From a bacterium (lineage in GTDB: Bacteria; UBP14; UBA6098; 4484-93), in NCBI GenBank assembly GCA_021158465.1, contig JAGGUN010000002.1, forward strand, positions 1 through 12,501: a stretch of DNA of 12,501 bases, given 5' to 3'. The notes beneath the pieces were generated by a model. The model was not told the DNA's origin. It searched no databases and saw only the letters and a list, made by a program, of their open reading frames with translations. Of this stretch, positions 1 to 11,886 are shown one piece after another. How positions within the stretch are numbered: position 1 is the first letter of the stretch; each line of letters starts with the position of its first letter. The position numbers were made by a program, and so were the translations under genes.

Positions 1-573
1 AACCGAAGCGGATATAAATGTAGCTTCATCGTACCAGTGTTCGCCTACTTCTGGGTCCGGTGTATCGTGTTCGGATGCAACAGTCAGTCTGTATTGTGTT
101 ACCCAGTTCCAGGTGATAGTCGACGGTTCGGTTATGTTAAACTCGGTGGATGCGTTAGTTCCGGATGGTGGCACAGAGCCAGTTCCTGTCCATCCTGTGC
201 ATCTGAATCTTGTTCCAGCGCCGTCGTCATCTGCAATGGAATCAACCGAAGCGGATATAAATGTAGCTTCATCGTACCAGTGTTCGCCTACTTCTGGGTC
301 CGGTGTATCGTGTTCGGATGCAACAGTCAGTCTGTATTGTGTTACCCAGTTCCAGGTGATGGTTGATGGTGCAAGCATATTAAACGATGTGGATGCGTTA
401 GTTCCGGATGGTGGCACAGAGCCAGTTCCTGTCCATCCTGTGCATCTGAACCTTGTTCCGGCGCCGTCGTCATCTGCAATGGAATCAACCGAAGCGGATA
501 TAAGTGTAGCTTCGTCGTACCAGTGTTCGCCTACTTCTGGGTCAGGTGTATCGTGTTCGGATGCGACGGTGAG
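1..573 (-). repeat. Near-identical 243-bp tandem units (three copies, one partial)
   Basis: Exact 243-bp spacing: AACCGAAGCGGATATAA occurs at 1, 244 and 487. Bases 1-117 are identical to 244-360, and 140-243 are nearly identical to 383-486. Differences between these two copies concentrate in about 118-140 versus 361-383. The third copy (from 487) carries scattered silent changes. Unit length is exactly 81 codons, so the frame is kept. This is the youngest-looking expansion visible and may continue left of the window. Confidence 0.95.
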
Positions 574-3500
574 TCTGTATTGTGTTACCCAGTTCCAGAT
601 AAGTGTTGTTCCCATAGTTATGGTGAATGATGTTGAGTGTCCGCTACCGCTTCCCGGCTCGGAGCCTATTCTTGTCCAGCTAACACAGCGGTACCTCACG
701 CCGCCGGACTCGTCCGCGAACTCTGGTGCTGTCGCATTGACTGTTGCTCCATCATCGAACCAGCTATCACCGTAGTCTGGGTCGGGTGTTCCGTGTTCCG
801 CTGGATTACCTATGACGGTCAATCTATACTGCAGTTGCCAGTTCCAGGTAAGGTCGGTTGCTGTAGTCATGCTAAACGATGTCGAATTCCCCGTTCCGCT
901 TCCTGGCTCGGAGCCTGTTCTCGTCCAGCCAGTGCAGTAGTATCTTGTGTCGCCTACCTCATCTGCCCATTCTGGAGCAGTTGCGTTTACCTCCGTTCCC
1001 GAGTTTATCCAGTTTACTCCATAATCTGGGTCGGGCGTTCCGTGTTCTTCTGGGCTTCCGTGGACGGTAAGCCTGTATTGTAACGCCCAGTTCCAGGTGA
1101 GGGTTGTTGGTGCGACGATAGCGAAAGATGTTGAAGTTTCTGTTCCGCTCCCCGGGAATGAACCGGTCCGAGTCCAGCCTTCGCAGTGGTACCTTGAGTC
1201 AGCGCTCTCTTCTGCTGTCTCGGGGCAGGAAGCGTTGATAACTGTTCCGTTGTCGTGCCAGTAAATTCCATAGTCTGGAGATGGTGTCCCGTGTTCGGAG
1301 GGTGAACCGACAATAGTCAGCTGATACTGCGTTTTCCATAGCCAAGTTACAGTGGAGTAAGAGTTCATATAGAAGGTTCCGGTATTCGTTCCGGTTCCTG
1401 AGCTTGGGGCATGCCCTGAGCCGATCCAGCCTGTGCAAACATACTGCGTTCCTGCTCCGCCAGAGACAGGCGATGTTACGGATGAGGATGCAGGGTTTCC
1501 CTCGTCATACCATCCTTCGCCTGTCGGTGTATCATAATCTGATGTAACCTTCAGGTAATATTGATGTGTCCAGGACGCCGTTTCTGTTATCGGATTGTTC
1601 ATAGTAACGGTGTGCGATAAGTCGGTTCCCGAGTATGAGCCTGCACCTGAACCTGTCCAGCTGACGAATACCCATCTTTCCTGTTCAGGTGTGACGACAT
1701 CTATATCTGAAAGCAATCCGAATTCCTGACTGGTGCCAGCATCACACCAACCCTCACCGTAGGGCGAACCGTGTGCAGAAACAACATCGAGATAATACTG
1801 TGTCACCCAGTTCCAGGTGATAGTGGAGTAAGAGTTCATCGGGAAGGTTCCGGTGCTCGTTCCCGTGCCAGAGGGCGCAGAGCCGGTCCCAGAATATCCT
1901 GTGCAAGCATACTGTATTCCTGCTCCGCCAGAGACAGGCGATGTCACAGATGATGATGCATTTGTCCCTGCATCATACCACCCTTCACCTGTCGGTGAAT
2001 CGTAGGGTGAGGTAACACTGAGATAGTACTGGTGTGTCCAGGATGCCGTTTCTGTTATCGGATTGTTCATAGTAACAGTGTGTGATAGGTCGGTTCCCGA
2101 GTATGAGCCGGCGCCTGAGCCTGTCCAGCTAACGAATACCCATCTTTCCTGTCCAGGTGTGACAACATCCGGTGAAGTTACCCCAAATGAAGCCACTGTT
2201 CCGGCATCGTACCATCCTTCTCCCGTGGGGCTCCCGTGGGCGGAGTTGACGGTAAGATAATACTGCGTGTCGAAGAACGCGGTATAACTTGTAGCCGATG
2301 TGGGTGAAACATTGTGCGATATTGCTCCCCCATCACTCCAGTGTGTCCAGACATACCTTGTATCTCCGACTGTCTGTGGTGATGTTGTAGCAATGTTATG
2401 AGATGAGCCAGAATCCCACCAGAATGTCTGACTGCTTGAATAGGCTGTTCCATCGACGGAGAAATCCCTACCTGATGGGTCAGTGCTGACGGTAATCTGG
2501 TATTGAGTGGTGAAGTATGCAGTATAGTCTGTAGCCGATGTCGGTGCGACATTGTGCGATATTGCTCCCCCATCGCTCCAGTGTGTCCAGACATACCTTG
2601 TATCTCCGACTGTCTGTGGTGATGTTGTGGCAATATTATGAGATGAGCCAGAATCCCACCAGAATGTCTGACTGCTTGAATAGGCTGTTCCATCGACAGA
2701 GAAATCCCTACCTGATGGGTCGGTTGATACCGTGTGTTTGTACTGATGGTCAAAGTAAGCGGTGTAGGTTGTCGCGCTTGATGGGACGAGGATGCTATGT
2801 GTTTGTCCGCCACCGTCTGACCAGTGGTCATAGATGTATCTTTCCGTGCCTGTCTCGAGCTGGGGAGATGTCACCCCGATGGTGTGTGCTGTTCCTGCTC
2901 TCCAGTACTCTGTATGAGGAGAGAGGTAAGCTGTTCCATCAACGATAACGGTACCACCTGGCATATTCGTTTGCACTGTAATAGGCACGCTCGTGTAGAA
3001 GACCCAGGTCGGACTCCAATCACTATACTCGTATCCATCATAGGCTCTGACACGCCAATAGTAGGTCTGTCCCTCGGTAGTTGTGAATGAGCTTGAGCTT
3101 GTCCCGGATGTTATGCCGCTTGCGACATAGGGAGCCGTTGGTGGGTTATCTGTGTCGACATACCAGTAGTATGTTATGCCGTCACCGTCGCAATCGGATG
3201 ATATGTTCCAGGAGACGGTCTGGCTTCCTGCCATAAGGAGTGCCCCATCTGAGGGCGAGGAGAGTGCCGGGTCCGTCGGCTCACCGTTCTCACGAAAACT
3301 CCTCGTCGATGATGTGCTTGTCCGACAGCTGTTGTAAGCATCTACATACCAGGAATAGTCGGTGCAATCGGAGGTTGACATTGTATACGATGTCGAACTG
3401 CCTGTATAAACATTCGACCCGTTGACCCAAAGCCTATAGCCGTCGGCTCTGTCGCAGCTCGACCACTGGAATGTTACGGAGTTCCCTGTGTGTCTTATGC

Positions 3501-5787
3501 CGTCCGCTGGAGCGGAGAGGGTTGGTGTCTCTGGTGTTCTGTAGGTTATATCAGATAGATTTATTGTGTATGAGCATATCGGGTCGTTCTCCATATATTC
3601 GTCAACCTTCACATAGTATGTCCCTGGCTCCACGCAGGTAGCATCGATTCTCGAGAAAAGCCCCGTTCCACCGTCATCGTCATAATCAACCTCTGTCAGA
3701 CTACCACAGCTTCCACGGTATAGCCACATCCTCGTATCTCCGGATGAACCGTCCGTCCAGACAGAGAAATCAGCATAATCCGTTGTCGTAAATGTTACCC
3801 AGTCTACATCCGCTCCATCCATATTGATAGTGTGGTCCTGTGAGCCTGGCGAGATAGCCCTCGCACTCGAACAGTCATCGTCCGACTCATAGGCATCCTG
3901 ATTACAGGAGGGAAGTGTTTCATAAAAATACTTGAAATAGTACCGCCCCCGTGTATAGGTCGAACTATAACCTCTCACCCATACCTTGTAATAGCCTGTT
4001 TCGGTGCAACACCACTCAATCCTGAAGTTGAGACCATCGCCACCATCATCGTCGGAGGTTATAATATTACAGTCATCATCTCCGAGGTAACCGTATGTAT
4101 CGGTGTGCTCATCATAATAAGAGGTGTAAAATGTATATTTCCTCCCACAATAAGCATGGAACCTGAAATAATCATAGTCTCCGTGAGGGCAGATTGTGTG
4201 ATACTGGGTCGACTCATATGTAGAAGGACTGATATATGTGTATTGCGAGCAGCCATCGTCGTTTTCATAACTATCCTCAGGATAGATGTACCCGCTACAA
4301 CTTGATGGATAGTCGCAGTTATCATGGTCAATACATTGATAAAATGTAATTGTATAACTACCAGAGCTGGTAAAGGTATATGAGTATGTATAATAAGCTC
4401 TTTGTTCGTGCCAGTAGTCGGTGCAGCTACCCCACTGGTCCTCCGCACAGCAATCGCCACTCTCATAACAGGGATCTGTGTAGTCTATACCGACCCATGT
4501 GTCAGCACTTCCCGCGCCCGTTAAGACTACTCTGGCATCGGCACCGCTGGAAAGGTCAGGGCAAGAGCCGCATCGATACCACATATACGAACAGGTCCAG
4601 CTTATAGTGTAGTTGACACAGTCGTTGGAACAATAAGGTCCTATAGGGTCGTCCTTTGTGCCTCCCCGTCGGCGACCCTGACAGGAAGGACAGGGAGCTT
4701 CGGTGGTATCATCGGATATAGAGGTAAAATAAAAGGTGAGCCTATTGTTATCTTCATCGAAGGCTTCCTTTGATATATTCATAGATAAAACCGCAAGCTT
4801 GTCATCGAACCGGAGATTGTGCGAAACCTTCTGATGTTTCCCCCCGATGGTTATCGTGCAGGAGTCCAAGACAACGCCGTTGGATGTGCCCTTTTCAGAG
4901 AAGCCCCATCCGCCTGTCCCGGAGTATGTTCCTGTTTTGCCGTCTTTGCCAGGGATAATCAGTGCCAGATTATTCTTACCGAGGGGGAATATCCATTCCA
5001 CATTTAAGGATTTTTTCGGGTGACCACGCAGTGGTAGCTCGATGAGAAAACCATCTTCTGTCCTGTGGCTGGCAGTGATAGGAGTGAAGAAGTCCTCGAC
5101 CCCATGGTTGAATGATAAAATTGCTTTCCTCAGTTCCTCCTCGAACTCTATGTTTTCACCTGTTCCCTTTCTGATGTATCCTCCCGGTAGACTGGTAGCT
5201 CTGTTTCTTCCGTAGCGAGAAGAGCTCTCTATATTGGGGCTCAAAAGCATAACGAGGCTATTCCCCGATTCTTCAAACGCCTCCCTCGGTATCGCTGTGG
5301 AGAAGGTCAGGGTATCACCCTCGATTCTCAGATTGTAGATGAGTTTGCGAGGCTTTTCGTTGATACTGACCATACAGGAATCCACGCTGAACAGCGCACC
5401 TGACTCCGTTGTATCGATGCCGAACCCACAGCTGCCGGAGCCCCTATACTCCCTTGCCCAAATCCCAGTTTCACTAGAATAGAGGCATAACCCACCCGGG
5501 ACAGGGTATCTCAGAACAAGCTGGTAGAAAGGCTCTTTGGGTATCCCTTTTAGGGGCAGCTCCAGTTTTACCTGATGCTCTCCAAATCTCTCAGACACAG
5601 GAACGGGTTCTATGTGGTCGTTATTTTGAGCACCGCCTAAGACGATCGCTTCCTTTACACCCTTTACGAATTCTGAGAACTGGTCTTTCTGTTCTGCAGC
5701 AAAGATAAGCGAATTGGTGAACACCGATATGAGCGACAAAGTTATCAGGAGCCCAACCACTCTGGCTCTCTTGGTTCGTCTTTCCAC
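1..5787 (-). CDS. Giant secreted multidomain repeat protein (C-terminus outside window)
   Basis: A single open frame of 1929 codons from a GTG start (bases 5785-5787) to the left window edge with no stop. The start is chosen because AAGGAGGG lies just upstream and residues 1-31 form a signal peptide (basic MERRTKRAR, hydrophobic core, ending IFAA). Seen after it: two related ~150-residue domains (37-186, 215-360); a Cys-rich segment (about 361-500, including CPSC); two PPC-like domains (502-623, 631-747) with YExDD, DVDWVTF and PGTYYVKV motifs; two Fn3-like domains (about 752-831, 840-932); then at least 13 repeats of about 80 residues (934 onward) resembling divergent InlB B-repeats, with recurring TQYxLTV, GWTGTGS and TWNW. 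Likely a cell-surface or released protein used in adhesion or binding; no catalytic motif was recognised. A sorting tail may lie in the missing C-terminus. A promoter at 5858-5885 suggests independent transcription. The reading frame is certain, the function is inferred. Confidence 0.85.
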   Translation of the reverse strand, partial: MERRTKRARVVGLLITLSLISVFTNSLIFAAEQKDQFSEFVKGVKEAIVLGGAQNNDHIEPVPVSERFGEHQVKLELPLKGIPKEPFYQLVLRYPVPGGLCLYSSETGIWAREYRGSGSCGFGIDTTESGALFSVDSCMVSINEKPRKLIYNLRIEGDTLTFSTAIPREAFEESGNSLVMLLSPNIESSSRYGRNRATSLPGGYIRKGTGENIEFEEELRKAILSFNHGVEDFFTPITASHRTEDGFLIELPLRGHPKKSLNVEWIFPLGKNNLALIIPGKDGKTGTYSGTGGWGFSEKGTSNGVVLDSCTITIGGKHQKVSHNLRFDDKLAVLSMNISKEAFDEDNNRLTFYFTSISDDTTEAPCPSCQGRRRGGTKDDPIGPYCSNDCVNYTISWTCSYMWYRCGSCPDLSSGADARVVLTGAGSADTWVGIDYTDPCYESGDCCAEDQWGSCTDYWHEQRAYYTYSYTFTSSGSYTITFYQCIDHDNCDYPSSCSGYIYPEDSYENDDGCSQYTYISPSTYESTQYHTICPHGDYDYFRFHAYCGRKYTFYTSYYDEHTDTYGYLGDDDCNIITSDDDGGDGLNFRIEWCCTETGYYKVWVRGYSSTYTRGRYYFKYFYETLPSCNQDAYESDDDCSSARAISPGSQDHTINMDGADVDWVTFTTTDYADFSVWTDGSSGDTRMWLYRGSCGSLTEVDYDDDGGTGLFSRIDATCVEPGTYYVKVDEYMENDPICSYTINLSDITYRTPETPTLSAPADGIRHTGNSVTFQWSSCDRADGYRLWVNGSNVYTGSSTSYTMSTSDCTDYSWYVDAYNSCRTSTSSTRSFRENGEPTDPALSSPSDGALLMAGSQTVSWNISSDCDGDGITYYWYVDTDNPPTAPYVASGITSGTSSSSFTTTEGQTYYWRVRAYDGYEYSDWSPTWVFYTSVPITVQTNMPGGTVIVDGTAYLSPHTEYWRAGTAHTIGVTSPQLETGTERYIYDHWSDGGGQTHSILVPSSATTYTAYFDHQYKHTVSTDPSGRDFSVDGTAYSSSQTFWWDSGSSHNIATTSPQTVGDTRYVWTHWSDGGAISHNVAPTSATDYTAYFTTQYQITVSTDPSGRDFSVDGTAYSSSQTFWWDSGSSHNIATTSPQTVGDTRYVWTHWSDGGAISHNVSPTSATSYTAFFDTQYYLTVNSAHGSPTGEGWYDAGTVASFGVTSPDVVTPGQERWVFVSWTGSGAGSYSGTDLSHTVTMNNPITETASWTHQYYLSVTSPYDSPTGEGWYDAGTNASSSVTSPVSGGAGIQYACTGYSGTGSAPSGTGTSTGTFPMNSYSTITWNWVTQYYLDVVSAHGSPYGEGWCDAGTSQEFGLLSDIDVVTPEQERWVFVSWTGSGAGSYSGTDLSHTVTMNNPITETASWTHQYYLKVTSDYDTPTGEGWYDEGNPASSSVTSPVSGGAGTQYVCTGWIGSGHAPSSGTGTNTGTFYMNSYSTVTWLWKTQYQLTIVGSPSEHGTPSPDYGIYWHDNGTVINASCPETAEESADSRYHCEGWTRTGSFPGSGTETSTSFAIVAPTTLTWNWALQYRLTVHGSPEEHGTPDPDYGVNWINSGTEVNATAPEWADEVGDTRYYCTGWTRTGSEPGSGTGNSTSFSMTTATDLTWNWQLQYRLTVIGNPAEHGTPDPDYGDSWFDDGATVNATAPEFADESGGVRYRCVSWTRIGSEPGSGSGHSTSFTITMGTTLIWNWVTQYRLTVASEHDTPDPEVGEHWYDEATLISASVDSIADDDGAGTRFRCTGWTGTGSVPPSGTNASTSFNMLAPSTITWNWVTQYRLTVASEHDTPDPEVGEHWYDEATFISASVDSIADDDGAGTRFRCTGWTGTGSVPPSGTNASTEFNITEPSTITWNWVTQYRLTVASEHDTPDPEVGEHWYDEATFISASV
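1321..2256 (-). repeat. Two copies of a ~156-residue A-B super-repeat
   Basis: Units starting at 2256 and 1791 (type A, GEGWxDAGT, RWVFVSWTGSGAGSYSGTD, MNNPITETASWTHQYY) alternate with units at 2022 and 1554 (type B, SPVSGGAG, QYxCTG, MNSYST). The A-B pair is repeated as a block: CGGATTGTTCATAGTAAC occurs at 1591 and 2059, 468 bp apart. The first A-B block spans 2256-1792 and the second 1791-1321. The two blocks differ by small in-frame indels, so they are older than the 243-bp units. Confidence 0.9.
2257..2736 (-). repeat. Two near-identical 240-bp tandem units
   Basis: GAAATCCCTACCTGATGGGTC occurs at 2461 and 2701, exactly 240 bp (80 codons) apart, and the stretches from about 2317 and 2557 match with only a few mismatches. 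The encoded units share DPSGRDFSVDGTAYSSSQTF and HWSDGGAISHNV. A more diverged relative lies at 2988-2737 (VIVDGTAY, HWSDGG). Confidence 0.93.
4711..5679 (-). repeat. Duplicated ~150-residue N-terminal domain in the giant protein
   Basis: Residues 37-186 (5679-5230) and 215-360 (5145-4708) align along their length: FSEFVKGVKEAI / FEEELRKAILSF, then IELPLRG / LELPLKG, then a YRGSGSCGFG / YSGTGGWGFS turn, then SVDSCMVSI / VLDSCTITI, then YNLRIEGDTL / HNLRFDDKLA, then IPREAFEESGN / ISKEAFDEDNN. Protein similarity is moderate and DNA similarity low, so the duplication is old. I recognise no named family. The predicted fold would be beta-rich. Confidence 0.8.
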
Positions 5788-5857: not shown

Positions 5858-5885
5858 ATTATATAATATATTTCGCTTTAGTCAA
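5858..5885 (-). promoter_or_regulatory. Sigma70-type promoter for the giant gene, inside the 3' end of the UbiA gene
   Basis: On the minus strand TTGACT (5885-5880), a 16-base spacer and TATAAT (5863-5858) match the consensus at 11 of 12 positions. The -35 box covers Leu-Thr codons near the end of the UbiA gene and the -10 box overlaps its TAA stop (5861-5859). Transcription would start near 5851, leaving a leader of about 64 bases before the GTG. Confidence 0.65.
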
Positions 5886-7427
5886 GTAAAGTATCGAGAG
5901 ATAAATCCAAAATATTACCATCATAGCTCGATATAAATTCTTACTCAAAACCGTAAAATTAGCCAGCCACACGAAAGAGATTACTGCCAGGGTAATTACC
6001 AGTTCCAGTTCGAGCCTTAGGCTCATCAAGGCTGGCATCACACCGTATAACCCTGTTGCCACTCCACACAGTATATAGTTGATTTTCCTCGGAGCATATT
6101 TGCTGTAAAGGTTGAAATAGCCAGAACTGGTATCACCTGCAATGTCTTTTTCATCCTTTAGGATCGACATTATGGTGAATGCGCAAAAGGTGATTGTAGC
6201 GATACCAACAGGGAGTTCGGTTAAGCTACGGGCTGGTATGTCCATTCCGGATACATAGCCGAGTAGAAAGGTCAGGACCGAATTGAGTCCAATGATGAGG
6301 TTTCCGGCGAAAGGGAAGCTCCGAACCTTCAGCCCGGGGTCTGAGTACAACCAACCGAAGATCAGCAGTGTCAGATTGACCAGGAATAGCCGATAGTCGA
6401 AGTAAAGTGAGCCGACTGACCCGAAGAGGATAGCTATATATGCAATCGTGAGCGCTTCCTGTTTTGATAAGAATCCATCAGATATAAGATTTCGTTTCCC
6501 GTTTAATCTATCTGCTTCCATGTCGGAGATATGATTGTAAATACGGACCGCGATCCAAAACGAGGTTGGAATGAGATATATTAAAAGAAGTCTCGACCAC
6601 CCCATAACAGAAAACCATGCGCTCTCGTTGTTGAAGGAGACCATTATCCCTGCTGTCAGCATGACATAGTAATGCAGGCTCGGAAAGCCGAAGAGATATT
6701 TCCAGCATTTTACCACAGACCAGTTAAAATAGGTTAGCAATATCAGCAGTAAAGCTATCCCATCGAGGATATACAGAACCACATAGCTGTTCTCGGAGAG
6801 CTGGAATATTCCCAAAGGAATGTGCCTTACCAGGTTGCATAGATATGGTACGAAGAAGGCGTATCCGTTGATGAAGAGGAGTACAAAGAATAAAGCCACA
6901 AAGGCAGCTATTCTTCTGAGCCAGCTACCCTTTCGATAGAGGAAAAGATAAAAACCGATCAATATAAAGATGATGTGCATCTGGAAGAAATGCCCGCCGG
7001 TTGTCCTGAGACCCGAATAGAGGTAAAGGATATGTTGTTTGATTGCGGCTATCAAGGAGACATTTGGGTCGTAGTTCATAACCACAAGCATATGACGACC
7101 AGCTGGTCCAAAGGCAATTAGATCGACAACAGGGGGTATGAAGAGGACCGTCATAGCAACCAAGCCCAGTTTGAAAACCTTTTCAACCCTTTCTCCGACT
7201 ATCAGATGCACTGCCAGAGTTCCCCATACCAGATAGGAAGCGTTTTGGATCCCGAAACTCAAGAGGTCCTTCGATGGTATTACAAATCCGACCGATGAGA
7301 TTGATTCCAGAATATCCCGTAAGGCTATTATCCCGACTAAAATGATAATACCTTTCCACCCTCCAAGCGGCATAGCCTGAATATTCTCTACACCTCTGGC
7401 AAAGCTATTTCTAATCTTACTCAGCAT
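5859..7427 (-). CDS. UbiA-superfamily prenyltransferase-like membrane protein with extra N-terminal membrane domain
   Basis: 522 residues, strongly hydrophobic with many membrane helices. The C-terminal part (about 265-522) carries both Asp-rich motifs of the UbiA family: N298-x3-D302-x3-D306-x2-N309 (NHISDMEADRLN) and D425-x2-D428-x3-D432 (KDEKDIAGD), which bind Mg-diphosphate in known members. YSDPGLKVRSFPFAGN between them is also family-typical. UbiA enzymes move prenyl chains onto aromatic or other acceptors in the membrane; a few are cyclases. Usual length is near 290, so the first ~240 residues, with several additional helices, are an unusual extension without a recognised family. The ATG overlaps the last 11 bases of the upstream toroid gene, implying translational coupling. 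Substrates cannot be read from the sequence. The active site looks intact. Confidence 0.82.
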   Translation of the reverse strand: MLSKIRNSFARGVENIQAMPLGGWKGIIILVGIIALRDILESISSVGFVIPSKDLLSFGIQNASYLVWGTLAVHLIVGERVEKVFKLGLVAMTVLFIPPVVDLIAFGPAGRHMLVVMNYDPNVSLIAAIKQHILYLYSGLRTTGGHFFQMHIIFILIGFYLFLYRKGSWLRRIAAFVALFFVLLFINGYAFFVPYLCNLVRHIPLGIFQLSENSYVVLYILDGIALLLILLTYFNWSVVKCWKYLFGFPSLHYYVMLTAGIMVSFNNESAWFSVMGWSRLLLIYLIPTSFWIAVRIYNHISDMEADRLNGKRNLISDGFLSKQEALTIAYIAILFGSVGSLYFDYRLFLVNLTLLIFGWLYSDPGLKVRSFPFAGNLIIGLNSVLTFLLGYVSGMDIPARSLTELPVGIATITFCAFTIMSILKDEKDIAGDTSSGYFNLYSKYAPRKINYILCGVATGLYGVMPALMSLRLELELVITLAVISFVWLANFTVLSKNLYRAMMVIFWIYLSILYLTKAKYII

Positions 7428-8682
7428 CTTTTGATTCCAGAACTTCAGGGTATCTTATCATAAGATATTTGGCTATTGCCTCCATACAGATAGCAGTCGA
7501 CCATTGAGAGGAGCATTGCTTTATTCGTTGGTCTGCGGAGCCTGTCACGCAGTCTGCCCTCCAGCTCCCGGATTGTGGGTTCTGGGCTGATATAATCTCT
7601 GCAATCAGCCTGTCGATTGCATTGCCTGTATATCCTGCATCCATCAAGCAGTTGGCAGCATAAGCATCGACTATCTCAAAGTTGTCGCTATAGCGCCACC
7701 TCATTCTATCGGAATCGGAATTATCGTCAATCTCGGATAATAGTTCATTCTGTATAGCTGAGACCGCTGGTCTTAGTTCCACAACTCCACCATCGGCATA
7801 AGCCCGGCAGATGTTATAACCGAAAGCGTAAGGGTTGCCAGCATACCAGCGGATAACCTCCGATGGGAACGAGAACTGTAGGTTCATCTCGGCAACCTTG
7901 TTTATCAGGGTCACCGTCTCTGCGAACCCTGGGGTGGTCTTCGAGTCGAGAACCCCAAGAAGGAATATGGCGTTTGATGCTGCCCCGAGGCATATGTCGT
8001 TACTGTCCTGGAAAGCTTTTTCAGGATAAGGACGTAGCCAGGTTAAGAAGGCACCTGTTGGCACATCGGCTATCTTCGCCCATATACCTTTTACGCATAT
8101 GTCCGAACCGTCGTCACGATTGGATGATAAAAGTTTCACAAATTCTTCGCTCTTCTTCCCCATAAAAAAGTATCGCACGAGGAAGTATATCGATGTGTCT
8201 TCGATGTCATCTGGATTCGATAATGACCTGTGTGGATACCAGTTTATTCTCCTGCAACCGTAAGTGGAGTCCACCGAAACGAAATTTTCCATATATCGAC
8301 ACACTTTGCCGGCAATTGTCTCGAATGCCTTTGCCTCGGGTGGAGGCAGAATCTGTTCCCGGTGACGGTAAAGTTCCTGCAAACACAGAAGTGCGCCCTG
8401 AGTTATAGCATTACATCGTATCCAGAGGGTATCCATCTTGGAGCAATCCCAGTTGGCGCACCGGCATACCAAACAGGGCCAACACCCCTCGGCAATATCC
8501 CTTATATTTCTATAATCTGCCGATGACAAATCGGATTTTATCTGGCTCTCGTCGAGAAAATGGATGCCGTTAACCAATGCGGAGATACAGGCATCTTTAT
8601 CGACGGTTGTCGCAGTGCAGCTAAACGGCAATAGGTGAAATATTACTATTACCGCGATGCTGATTGGGAAAAGCAATCTCAT
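7417..8682 (-). CDS. Exported alpha/alpha-toroid protein, terpenoid-cyclase/prenyltransferase-like
   Basis: 421 residues from the ATG at 8682. This start is chosen because residues 1-24 are a signal peptide (MRLLFPISIAVIVIFHLLPF, cleavage near CTA) and it lies 32 bases after the radical SAM stop. The open frame continues upstream to 8829, but that would overlap the previous gene by over 100 bases. Mostly helical. PDDIEDTS (157-164) resembles the DXDDTA motif of class II terpenoid cyclases, with Glu161 where the catalytic Asp usually is. QNPQSGSW (367-374) matches the QW motif, followed by a typical closing helix. At ~400 residues it is one barrel, shorter than squalene-hopene cyclase. Cys67, 70, 73, 75 and 80 form a tight cluster that could bind metal or form disulfides outside the cytoplasm. 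Function is unknown: a cyclase, lipid binder or peptide-processing toroid is possible. Confidence 0.62.
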   Translation of the reverse strand: MRLLFPISIAVIVIFHLLPFSCTATTVDKDACISALVNGIHFLDESQIKSDLSSADYRNIRDIAEGCWPCLVCRCANWDCSKMDTLWIRCNAITQGALLCLQELYRHREQILPPPEAKAFETIAGKVCRYMENFVSVDSTYGCRRINWYPHRSLSNPDDIEDTSIYFLVRYFFMGKKSEEFVKLLSSNRDDGSDICVKGIWAKIADVPTGAFLTWLRPYPEKAFQDSNDICLGAASNAIFLLGVLDSKTTPGFAETVTLINKVAEMNLQFSFPSEVIRWYAGNPYAFGYNICRAYADGGVVELRPAVSAIQNELLSEIDDNSDSDRMRWRYSDNFEIVDAYAANCLMDAGYTGNAIDRLIAEIISAQNPQSGSWRADCVTGSADQRIKQCSSQWSTAICMEAIAKYLMIRYPEVLESKDAE

Positions 8683-8714
8683 CACCTGGATATTTGGATT
8701 GTCCTCCTTCAATC

Positions 8715-9710
8715 TTATGGTAAGTACATTCTTATAACCTTGGTTGAACGGATGCCGGCTAATATTGGATTGCCTGCCCCTGCTGGGATTACCCTGCACT
8801 GCCCGCATTGCACATAATCGCTGTAGCAATGCCGCGGCGTAAAATCTGACTGGTAGTGAAGCACACTGCTACCATAGTAGCATTTACGATTGTTTCTGTT
8901 TTCCGGGTGCATCATCTTGCGGATTAACGGCTTCGACATATAAACATTTGGAAGTTCTGATAGTTTCAGAAGTTTTTCCTCGATCTTTTCGTATTCTTCT
9001 GGAGTGAGGAAGCGGGAGTTGTCTCCCTTTCTAAAGCACTCGACATTGTAGACGACCCCGAGAACACCGAGCTCTTTTGCAATATCAGGGATTTCGTCTA
9101 TAAAGGGCAGTGTTTCGTGTGTTACAACGGAATTGATTATCACCCTTTTGTCGCCCTGATAGTGGCGGATAGCCCGTTCAAATGCTCCTTTACCGCGGAG
9201 GTAATCGTTCACCTCCGGTGGACCGTCGATGGAGAGGAAGATCCGCCCCTTGAACCATTCTCCTATGCGGTTTGTGCCGTTGGTTATGGTTAGCAGTAGT
9301 GGGAAGATTCTGGCTGCTAATCTTAACACATCCATTCGGAGTGTCGGCTCCCCGCCCCAAAGGTTCACCGCACGAACTCCCTGCCTGTAAAGTTCTAAAA
9401 AGAAAGCTTCCCACTCATCGATTGTTGGTTCTCTTCTGGTCTCTCTTAAACCAACCTTGTAAACACAGTGCAGACAATTGCCGTTGCACCTGTTGGTTAT
9501 GTGAACCACAGCTAAGTATGGGTGTTTTTGCAGTATTCGTCTCATCTCGAAGATTGGCAGGCGGATCAGGAAACGGGCAGAAGCTGGGTTGAAGATGGGG
9601 AAAATGAATCTTAATGCCCCATCCAACAGGTTGGCAAGCCGTTCTTCCGGATATTTCTTACTCCTGATCACTATCTCTCGTGGCTCCTCTATATCAACTG
9701 GATTTGCCAT
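8715..9710 (-). CDS. Radical SAM enzyme with C-terminal Cys cluster
   Basis: 331 residues. The CNGNCLHC motif (Cys75, 79, 82) is the CxxxCxxC site for the SAM-cleaving 4Fe-4S cluster, and WGGEP (118-122) is the SAM-binding GGEP motif; TNGT and FLSIDGP further along fit the same barrel. Cys277, 295, 302 and 305 near the C-terminus could hold an auxiliary cluster, as in short SPASM or twitch domains. The ATG at 9710 is preferred because GGGGGAG stands just before it; an in-frame ATG at 9737 lacks a clear ribosome site. It lies 117 bases after xseB and 32 bases before the toroid gene, so it is probably cotranscribed with the toroid and UbiA genes. Family members modify peptides, cofactors or lipids by radical chemistry; the substrate here is unknown. 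The context suggests a lipid or isoprenoid target, which is an inference. Confidence 0.88.
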   Translation of the reverse strand: MANPVDIEEPREIVIRSKKYPEERLANLLDGALRFIFPIFNPASARFLIRLPIFEMRRILQKHPYLAVVHITNRCNGNCLHCVYKVGLRETRREPTIDEWEAFFLELYRQGVRAVNLWGGEPTLRMDVLRLAARIFPLLLTITNGTNRIGEWFKGRIFLSIDGPPEVNDYLRGKGAFERAIRHYQGDKRVIINSVVTHETLPFIDEIPDIAKELGVLGVVYNVECFRKGDNSRFLTPEEYEKIEEKLLKLSELPNVYMSKPLIRKMMHPENRNNRKCYYGSSVLHYQSDFTPRHCYSDYVQCGQCRVIPAGAGNPILAGIRSTKVIRMYLP

Positions 9711-9827
9711 ATTCTCCCCCTGTCCTTGCTTTGACATCTACTATATTCTTCGGAGAAATACTACCTTTCCTTACAAATAAAGCTATACAAATCCAAGTAG
9801 TCAAGAAGAAAGTCTTGAAAGATAAGA

Positions 9828-10079
9828 TTAATTTTCCTTTGTTTCTGTTTCCTTGAGGGTTAGGATGCCGTTCTCATCTTTAATGAGGAGTTTTATCTTC
9901 TTTTCTGCCTCGTCCAGTTTCTTGTAACACCATTTTGCTACTTTACATGCCTCCTCAAAGGTGGAGATTGCTTCGTCAAGGTCTAATCCTCCGCTCTCAA
10001 GCTTCTCTATGAGCCTTTCGAGGTATTCCATCCCATCTCTGAACTTCTTGAACCTCTCTGGCTCGAACAGGTCTCCCAT
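9828..10079 (-). CDS. xseB: Exodeoxyribonuclease VII small subunit
   Basis: 83 residues, the usual size for XseB. The sequence shows the family pattern: FRDGMEYLERLIEKLESGGL, then LDEAISTFEEACKVAKWCYKKLDEAEKKI, a pair of amphipathic helices. XseB binds the large subunit XseA to form exonuclease VII, which degrades single-stranded DNA in the cytoplasm. xseA is not in this window. GGAGGTGAT stands just before the ATG. It is the first gene of the minus-strand set, with the divergent promoter region upstream. In many bacteria xseB sits beside isoprenoid genes (ispA, dxs), and here it precedes a radical SAM / cyclase-like / UbiA group. Confidence 0.87.
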   Translation of the reverse strand: MGDLFEPERFKKFRDGMEYLERLIEKLESGGLDLDEAISTFEEACKVAKWCYKKLDEAEKKIKLLIKDENGILTLKETETKEN

Positions 10080-10203: not shown

Positions 10204-11886
10204 ATGGTTAGGATGTTGGCGATTTGTGCCGTAGTTTTTATCTTTTTTGGGGTGTCGTTGGCGCAGGAGTTTGAGCTATCGGCACAGTTTCCCAAGGAGA
10301 TAATTAACGCCTCTCATTCTGCCACGGATGCTGGCGTTGAGATGTATTTTAATTTCGATGTGATCGACACAATCAATGAGGGAGAGAGTTGCCATCCTGT
10401 TCTTGGTGGAGCAGTCTATACCTCGACGAATGGAGGTTCGAGTTGGGAGTTGCACCCTGCGTCGGTTATCGGTGATCCGGGGTATGACTCGACTTACGAG
10501 GCTTCGTTCACCAATCCTGCAAGCGGGAATGTTCAATACTATTATAAGGTCTGGACAGATAGCACCGTTTCCTGCTGGCTGCCGAACAACTCATCGAATA
10601 CATTCCCTGCTCCCGACAACAAGCTCGTTCAGATATGCGGCGACCCGACAGGCGACCAGGATTCAATTATGCTTCCCTGGGACAACGGCTATCGTAGTTA
10701 TTCCTGCACAGACCTTGTCGATTTCTGGGTTGGATATTCCAGCTCCAATCTCTTCTACAAGGTAACCGTTGCAGGAGGCGGTTTCCCGTATAGTCATACA
10801 GAGCATGTATCGACAGGGCTTGCCAGTTGGTGCCCCAATAGCGAAGTAGACCTGGATGTTTTCCATATCTATACATTCCCGATAATCAATCCGAATGCTC
10901 CGTATCCTGATTCCATATTCTATGCCGCAATATATGGGGATGTATCCATAAGCTTCGTGGTTGTTACTATTCATATCTGGACGGGGGTTTATAAGGTTCA
11001 TAAGCTGGATTCGACTGCCACCTGGATAGACTATCTAAGCGTATATACGAGGCTTGGAGACATTGAGAGTGATGTATCAGGCAATACATTATCGCTTCGT
11101 GTTCCCCTATCGGTTCTGACATCTGATCCGGATTTCGGCACGCTCGACCCTGATTTGCCGCTTGCAACCGGATGCGGGATAGGAACCGCCTGTGCATTTC
11201 CAAAGGAGCCGGGATGCTTTATATACGGTCTTTGCGATACCTTTGCTTACTCTATCAATGATGGCTCACCATCCGTTGGAATGTATCTGAAGACAGGGGA
11301 GTATACCGTTACTCCATCCAGCCCACCTGTGCTATCCGCTTATGGTGGCTCTGCAGCTGGCGGCAAGGGGGTAACATTCTACTATTGCACATATACCGAC
11401 CCTGAGGGCGATATACCAGTCGTCCATGATGTTGTCATCGATGGAACACCCTATACCCTCGATTCTTATGGCGACCACACCTATTCCGATGGTGCTGATT
11501 TCTATCTTGTCCGCTCGGATATCGGTTCTCGACCGACATTCCATTTCCACTTCTCCGATGGTGCAAATGATGTGACAACAGAGGACCTGTCGCTCGGCAT
11601 AGAGGAGAATATCCCATCCTCCGGTTTTACTCTGGGTTCTGCCTACCCCAATCCGTTCAATGCTGCCGTCACAATTCCTGTTAATGCTTATGAAGATTTT
11701 GATAACATAACAATAGAGATTTACAATATCAACGGAGAGAAAATAAGAACGCTTCACTCAGGTTATCTTTCTCGTGGTTTCCACCATTTCATCTGGAACG
11801 GGAAGGATGCTTCATCTGGTCTCTATTTCGTCCGGGTTCGAGCAGCTGGTGATGAGCAACTCTCTCGCATTATGCTTATGAAATAG
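10204..11886 (+). CDS. Secreted protein with type IX-like C-terminal sorting domain
   Basis: 560 residues. Residues 1-20 are a signal peptide (hydrophobic core, SLA before Gln21). The middle is beta-rich, with Cys pairs and a YTSTNGGSSWELHP stretch (about 72-85). Residues 375-455 look like an Ig-like domain (TYTDPEGDIP, HFHFSDG). Residues 472-560 match the C-terminal sorting / FlgD Ig-like type: YPNPFN (481-486), ITIEIYNINGEKIRTL, GFHHFIWNGKDASSGLYFVRV, ending in LMK. In type IX secretion such tails carry proteins across the outer membrane and are often removed or replaced by a surface anchor. No enzyme motif was seen in the body, so the role is unknown. It is preceded by a consensus promoter and a strong ribosome site, and followed after 21 bases by the next gene on the same strand. 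Confidence 0.82.
   Translation: MVRMLAICAVVFIFFGVSLAQEFELSAQFPKEIINASHSATDAGVEMYFNFDVIDTINEGESCHPVLGGAVYTSTNGGSSWELHPASVIGDPGYDSTYEASFTNPASGNVQYYYKVWTDSTVSCWLPNNSSNTFPAPDNKLVQICGDPTGDQDSIMLPWDNGYRSYSCTDLVDFWVGYSSSNLFYKVTVAGGGFPYSHTEHVSTGLASWCPNSEVDLDVFHIYTFPIINPNAPYPDSIFYAAIYGDVSISFVVVTIHIWTGVYKVHKLDSTATWIDYLSVYTRLGDIESDVSGNTLSLRVPLSVLTSDPDFGTLDPDLPLATGCGIGTACAFPKEPGCFIYGLCDTFAYSINDGSPSVGMYLKTGEYTVTPSSPPVLSAYGGSAAGGKGVTFYYCTYTDPEGDIPVVHDVVIDGTPYTLDSYGDHTYSDGADFYLVRSDIGSRPTFHFHFSDGANDVTTEDLSLGIEENIPSSGFTLGSAYPNPFNAAVTIPVNAYEDFDNITIEIYNINGEKIRTLHSGYLSRGFHHFIWNGKDASSGLYFVRVRAAGDEQLSRIMLMK

Follow-up and report, generated by a model that had tools for sequence, protein, structure and literature searches.

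A predicted operon with a putatively exported cyclase-like toroid and a long UbiA protein beside a giant secreted protein in a candidate bacterial phylum

The window analysed here, 12,501 nucleotides long, spans contig C6 from end to end; the genome it comes from (G000) measures 2.04 Mb and is 97.6% complete. This genome belongs to a candidate phylum that is small and was sampled with 17 genomes; the named records of its relatives are uncultured metagenome bins. A sequence-only reading of this DNA had described three tightly packed genes on one strand. ORF positions checked on the window show that the minus strand does carry all three (radical SAM, toroid and UbiA), with a gap of 32 bp and an overlap of 11 bp. 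The unit was drawn one gene short, however: a fourth gene on the same strand, encoding a giant secreted protein, starts at position 5787, 71 bp downstream of the UbiA gene. The locus reads as a four-gene operon encoding a radical SAM enzyme, a cyclase-like protein predicted to be exported, a long UbiA protein and a giant secreted surface protein. Its features, in the order of the operon, are as follows.

8715..9710, minus strand: radical SAM enzyme (Pfam Radical_SAM, E 1.4e-11; CX3CX2C motif; alternative start at 9737)
9465..9488, minus strand: CX3CX2C motif for the radical SAM [4Fe-4S] cluster (Cys 84, 88 and 91, counted from 9737)
8796..8882, minus strand: C-terminal group of four cysteines (C286, C304, C311 and C314, from the translation)
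7417..8682, minus strand: putative exported monodomain class II terpene-cyclase-like toroid, 421 aa (matches with the A2 and A6 profiles; N-terminal hydrophobic signal)
8191..8208, minus strand: DIEDTS, corresponding to the DxDTT/DxDD acid motif with Asp replaced by Glu at the acid position (aligned to AstC D271xD273T)
7972..7974, minus strand: N237, equivalent of AstC N324 (alignment to AstC)
7843..7845, minus strand: Y280, equivalent of AstC Y361 (alignment to AstC)
5859..7427, minus strand: long UbiA membrane protein, 522 aa (Pfam UbiA, E 1.4e-13)
6699..7427, minus strand: conserved N-terminal membrane domain of the long UbiA protein (from the alignment; without a Pfam or PDB sequence match)
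6510..6536, minus strand: first Asp motif, NHISDMEAD (read in the window UbiA)
6132..6155, minus strand: second Asp motif, DEKDIAGD (read in the window UbiA)
1..5787, minus strand: giant secreted repeat protein with cysteines, of at least 1,929 aa (GTG start with ribosome-binding site; PPC domain; runs off the contig)

Two further ORFs lie upstream of the operon: one of 83 aa that by eye resembles the exonuclease VII small subunit (9828-10079), and one on the opposite strand whose secreted product has a T9SS C-terminal sorting domain (10204-11886).

The radical SAM identity claimed at first is borne out by the CX3CX2C motif and by a Pfam Radical_SAM score of 45.3 bits, over the cut-off of 29.5. 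The start at 9710 is preceded by a strong ribosome-binding site; 9737 is an earlier ATG. The C-terminal region has four cysteines, where a SPASM domain has seven, and these four could possibly hold one auxiliary Fe-S cluster. SkfB and cytosylglucuronate decarboxylase are the closest PDB relatives. Models of peptide or cofactor maturases come nearest, each far under its cut-off, and HpnH is not among the best 25 NCBIfam matches, all 25 of which likewise score far under their cut-offs. No close relative of the gene was found in the other 16 genomes of the phylum, and it therefore looks like a local addition to the operon. This lack of relatives contradicts the idea of a conserved three-gene cassette, which we reject in the form in which it was proposed.

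Compared with Pfam on its own, the window toroid gives no match, and a single-sequence structure model was too poor for use (pLDDT 46). The A2 profile, built from the window toroid and two relatives from genome G005, matches the beta domain of drimenol synthase in the PDB (E 1.2e-8) and, weakly, AstC. Matches are stronger with the A6 profile, an alignment of the ten-member toroid family: its positions 49-345 align to 239-523 of the drimenol synthase beta domain (E 1.2e-23), and AstC is aligned across the toroid (E 6.7e-16). Squalene-hopene cyclase and MstE are matched as well (E 9e-6 for the PDB profile match to MstE). Short toroids found with Pfam elsewhere in the phylum (L178-L184) stand in other contexts and do not match the family profile.

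The catalytic residues can be read against AstC, in which D273 is the acid and D271 the base, the acid being oriented by N324 and Y361; the mutants D271A, D273N, N324A and Y361F all abolish the product (PMC13244436). AsDMS likewise relies on the middle Asp of its DxDTT motif (PMC9128629). In the HMMER alignment the window equivalents are D159 (base), E161 (acid), N237 and Y280. Within the family the base position is Asp in 10/10 members and the acid position Asp in nine of ten (the relatives L145 and L146, for instance, have DLDDIS/DLDDTA), the window having Glu; Asn is found at the N324 position in all ten and Tyr at the Y361 position in 9/10, both being kept in the window. The toroid can thus be placed among the relatives of class II terpene cyclases, with its catalytic residues conserved, which is more definite than the "cyclase-like" of the first guess. 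It shares with the HAD-fused AsDMS and AstC the alpha6-alpha6 toroid of the beta domain, the DxD acid-base motif and the proton-relay Asn and Tyr, but differs in lacking the HAD domain, in carrying an export signal instead, in the Glu at the acid position and in its very low identity. A second domain (gamma or HAD, as in SHC, CPS and HAD-fused DMS) is absent: one domain follows the signal, in line with the single barrel described before.

Export is predicted for the family as a whole. A strong N-terminal hydrophobic segment (signal or anchor) without a later transmembrane stretch is present in 7/10 members, among them the window toroid, for which a signal peptide had already been noted. The remaining three share an N-terminal region resembling the NHLP leader, a leader class exported by an ABC transporter:

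L147:7570-8889: toroid with NHLP-leader-like region
L148:6950-8311: toroid with NHLP-leader-like region
L150:2-1375: toroid with NHLP-leader-like region

One of these three was scanned against the NHLP model and gave E 9e-11 with 41.5 bits, under the cut-off of 50.9. In the L147 cluster, which was examined in full, the toroid has among its neighbours a SagD-type YcaO protein as well as an ABC transporter for NHLP export, and L148 too has a YcaO gene. The L147 cluster further holds a fatty acid desaturase and a QhpG-like monooxygenase. Overall, the family looks like one of exported monodomain class II cyclases, and the cyclase is predicted to leave the cytoplasm. The most unusual feature found would be that one cyclase-like family uses two export routes, Sec-type signals or anchors and NHLP leaders.

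The long UbiA protein scores 51.1 bits against Pfam UbiA (cut-off 34.2). Both Asp motifs, as had been noted, are intact, and the model (pLDDT 69.5) superimposes on the DGGGP synthase 7bpu with Z 21.3 and rmsd 4.2 over 269 residues. The UbiA fold and both Asp motifs are shared with archaeal DGGGP synthase and UbiA homologues (7bpu, 6m31, 4tq3), whereas the window protein has in addition an N-terminal membrane domain of about 240 residues. The protein had been called "enlarged", which is correct, but it was missed that the extra length is a discrete and conserved domain. This domain has no sequence match in Pfam or PDB, though its fold could still be known; a search with the full-length model gave matches chiefly to the UbiA domain. 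R37, E41, P99, D102 and G145 are invariant or nearly so. Several polar residues that are otherwise conserved are gone from the window copy (Q for E, S for H, V for Y, Q for E).

Contig searches with the UbiA protein alone gave no match, against nine loci with the A3 profile. The family counts 14 copies (full-length or truncated at a contig edge, E <= 1e-90) in 7/17 genomes of the phylum. Outside it, 369 other bacterial genomes were sampled and about a dozen of them have the N-terminal domain together with UbiA, as do a Zixibacteria bin and one archaeal genome, a Diapherotrites archaeon. Most members, the window included, keep both UbiA Asp motifs. These motifs are lost in L033 and L034 of G005 and in a TPR-fused group, where the residues of the N-terminal domain are kept. 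Judging from these opposite losses in the window and in the latter proteins, the two modules erode independently. In several genomes TPR repeats are fused to the C-terminus of the long UbiA protein. L105-L119 (G287, G225, G354, G084, G302, G273, G136 and G133) are long UbiA proteins of 760-1,030 residues, several of which end in TPR repeats, and a subgroup without the UbiA Asp motifs keeps the N-terminal membrane domain. At L077:4769-5494 the domain is a stand-alone protein of 241 aa, upstream of a full-length long UbiA. Further downstream, L077 has a weakly cupredoxin-like protein and a very Cys-rich (13%) secreted protein.

The giant gene starts at a GTG with its own ribosome-binding site (aaggaggg-aaaa-GTG), and its product has a PPC domain and many repeats. 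Contig C4, considered as the carrier of the rest of the gene, has no overlap with it at the contig ends. Giant secreted repeat proteins of 2,000-3,800 residues give dozens of matches per genome across the phylum. The family of the window giant is abundant in nearly every genome (33 matches in G000 and 64 in G005), mostly without a UbiA neighbour. A sortase-like system acting on the giants was considered and rejected, as no common C-terminal sorting signal was seen.

What recurs is a set of toroid, UbiA and giant, without the radical SAM gene. It is found in this order on contig C193 of G005, a genome from another family of the phylum and the only other one with the set. The giant downstream of this pair shares 38% identity over about 1,500 aa with that of the window, and under random gene order the toroid-UbiA pair has P of about 0.002. 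A second toroid of G005 (C116) stands alone. The Asp motifs of the C193 UbiA are degraded (the first is N..E..I instead of N..D..D), and prenyl transfer by this protein is therefore doubtful. In G002 (C13 and C94) a gene of the long UbiA family adjoins a giant of the window's giant family. Other secreted neighbours of long UbiA genes are a second giant family, T9SS-type subtilases and a C25 peptidase, and a PsbP-like and glycine-zipper pair that also occurs in Zixibacteria adjoins long UbiA too. With a crude ORF caller and signals called by a simple hydrophobicity rule, genes over 900 aa are enriched beside long UbiA genes (11/37 against 10/185, P 7e-5), as are secreted genes (20/37 against 55/185, P 0.0045).

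We favour, with a probability of roughly 35%, the reading that the operon is a membrane and extracytoplasmic terpenoid-modification cassette tied to the surface protein. With a Mg2+-prenyl diphosphate as donor, the UbiA domain would prenylate an acceptor within the inner membrane, and in the cytoplasm the radical SAM enzyme would act on this acceptor or on a peptide. Next, the exported cyclase would protonate and cyclize the prenyl chain from the outer face, and the product would modify, anchor or assemble the giant surface protein as the likely beneficiary. Sequence and fold show the four genes with their motifs, the homologies of the cyclase and of UbiA, and the gene order repeated in G005; we infer the substrates, the order of the steps and the link to the giant protein. 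Prenylation by UbiA followed by ring closure by an exported cyclase is proposed because it would be analogous to the action of MstE, a monodomain class II cyclase in merosterolic acid synthesis whose substrate is a geranylgeranylated benzoate (PMC9401909). MstE is a single-domain class II cyclase like the window toroid and acts on a prenylated acceptor; the window cyclase differs in being encoded together with a long UbiA, a radical SAM enzyme and a giant secreted protein. A difficulty for the model is that UbiA enzymes are generally regarded as opening toward the cytoplasm, so that flipping of the substrate must be assumed. We know of no report of MstE being exported.

Gene order and conserved residues support such a prenylation-cyclization mechanism. 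Against it stand the degraded UbiA motifs in G005, the solitary second toroid of that genome, the Glu acid in the window and the unconserved radical SAM gene; the loss of Asp motifs in the second genome in particular weakens a simple model of prenylation followed by cyclization. Given that the giants are numerous in the phylum and mostly lack a UbiA neighbour, the giant in the window may be a mere neighbour, and a dedicated UbiA-giant pair is likewise weakened by the many giants of this family per genome. The cross-membrane pathway for lipids, quinones or isoprenoids that had been suggested at the outset keeps the backing of the cyclase and UbiA homologies, but not that of a conserved trio.

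Almost as likely is that the long UbiA family has a non-catalytic part in assembly. On this view the long UbiA protein would serve in the membrane to make or export large secreted proteins, with the toroid as its non-catalytic extracytoplasmic partner; the N-terminal domain would be the working part, and the UbiA domain would bind an isoprenoid lipid, often without catalysis. This would account for the large secreted proteins adjoining long UbiA genes across phyla, including the T9SS-type subtilases and the C25 peptidase, and for the retention of the N-terminal domain where the Asp motifs are lost (L033, L034 and the TPR-fused group). The stand-alone version in L077 and the TPR fusions of several members point the same way. 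It fits poorly, however, with the Asp motifs that most members keep, the window included, with the loss of conserved polar residues from the N-terminal domain of the window protein itself, and with the conserved acid machinery of the toroid.

Alternatively, the operon might serve a small-molecule meroterpenoid pathway, in which UbiA prenylates an aromatic compound or quinone, the cyclase cyclizes the product and tailoring of the head group falls to the radical SAM enzyme, with no relation to the giant. A prenylated acceptor with a monodomain class II cyclase follows the logic of merosterolic acid, and the operon includes the radical SAM gene. We nonetheless consider this unlikely given the export signal on the cyclase, the absence of other biosynthetic genes from the contig, and the place of the giant gene in a recurring set.

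It is similarly improbable that the genes are adjacent by chance, with a functional link for the toroid-UbiA pair only or for none of them. The radical SAM gene is indeed unconserved, and outside the phylum the toroid occurs with long UbiA in just one of the sampled genomes (G302), where they lie on different contigs; yet the 11-bp overlap, the 32-bp gap and the toroid-UbiA-giant order repeated in a different family of the phylum argue against coincidence. The hopanoid pathway resembles the locus in combining a class II toroid (SHC) with a radical SAM enzyme (HpnH), but the window toroid has one domain and is predicted to be exported, and no Pfam SQHop_cyclase_C match is found in the 97.6% complete genome, so that hopanoids, set aside from the beginning, are unlikely and this pathway is rejected.

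Each enzyme of the operon belongs to a known superfamily. What appears undescribed, in the part of the literature covered by our search, is the exported cyclase family, the N-terminal domain of UbiA and the pairing of both beside giants; neither class II cyclases that are exported nor the long UbiA architecture were found described there. To our knowledge class II terpene cyclases are cytoplasmic or cytoplasm-facing enzymes. An exported family with its catalytic residues kept would, if true, place terpene cyclization, or a new use of the fold, outside the cytoplasm. More doubtful is the wider proposal that exported monodomain class II cyclases (Sec-type or NHLP) form a widespread family as yet without a name, and that one of them here joins a two-module UbiA, with its new N-terminal membrane domain, in attaching a cyclized isoprenoid to a target outside the cytoplasm, for instance the giant surface protein. 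Should the cyclase and the long UbiA act together, bacteria would modify surface molecules with isoprenoids in a way that has gone unrecognised.

With the long UbiA family comes a conserved membrane domain that is present in several bacterial phyla and one archaeal genome, often beside secreted proteins. In G008:C79 (L024:8959-11101) a TPR protein and a VanZ-like protein precede the long UbiA gene. The genome of the window itself has, on another contig (G000:C36, L070:391-2064), an ORF of 557 residues in which an IspH-like (LytB) N-terminus is fused to a UbiA-like membrane domain; it adjoins a glycoside hydrolase family 57-like gene (IspH and GH57 both assigned by eye).
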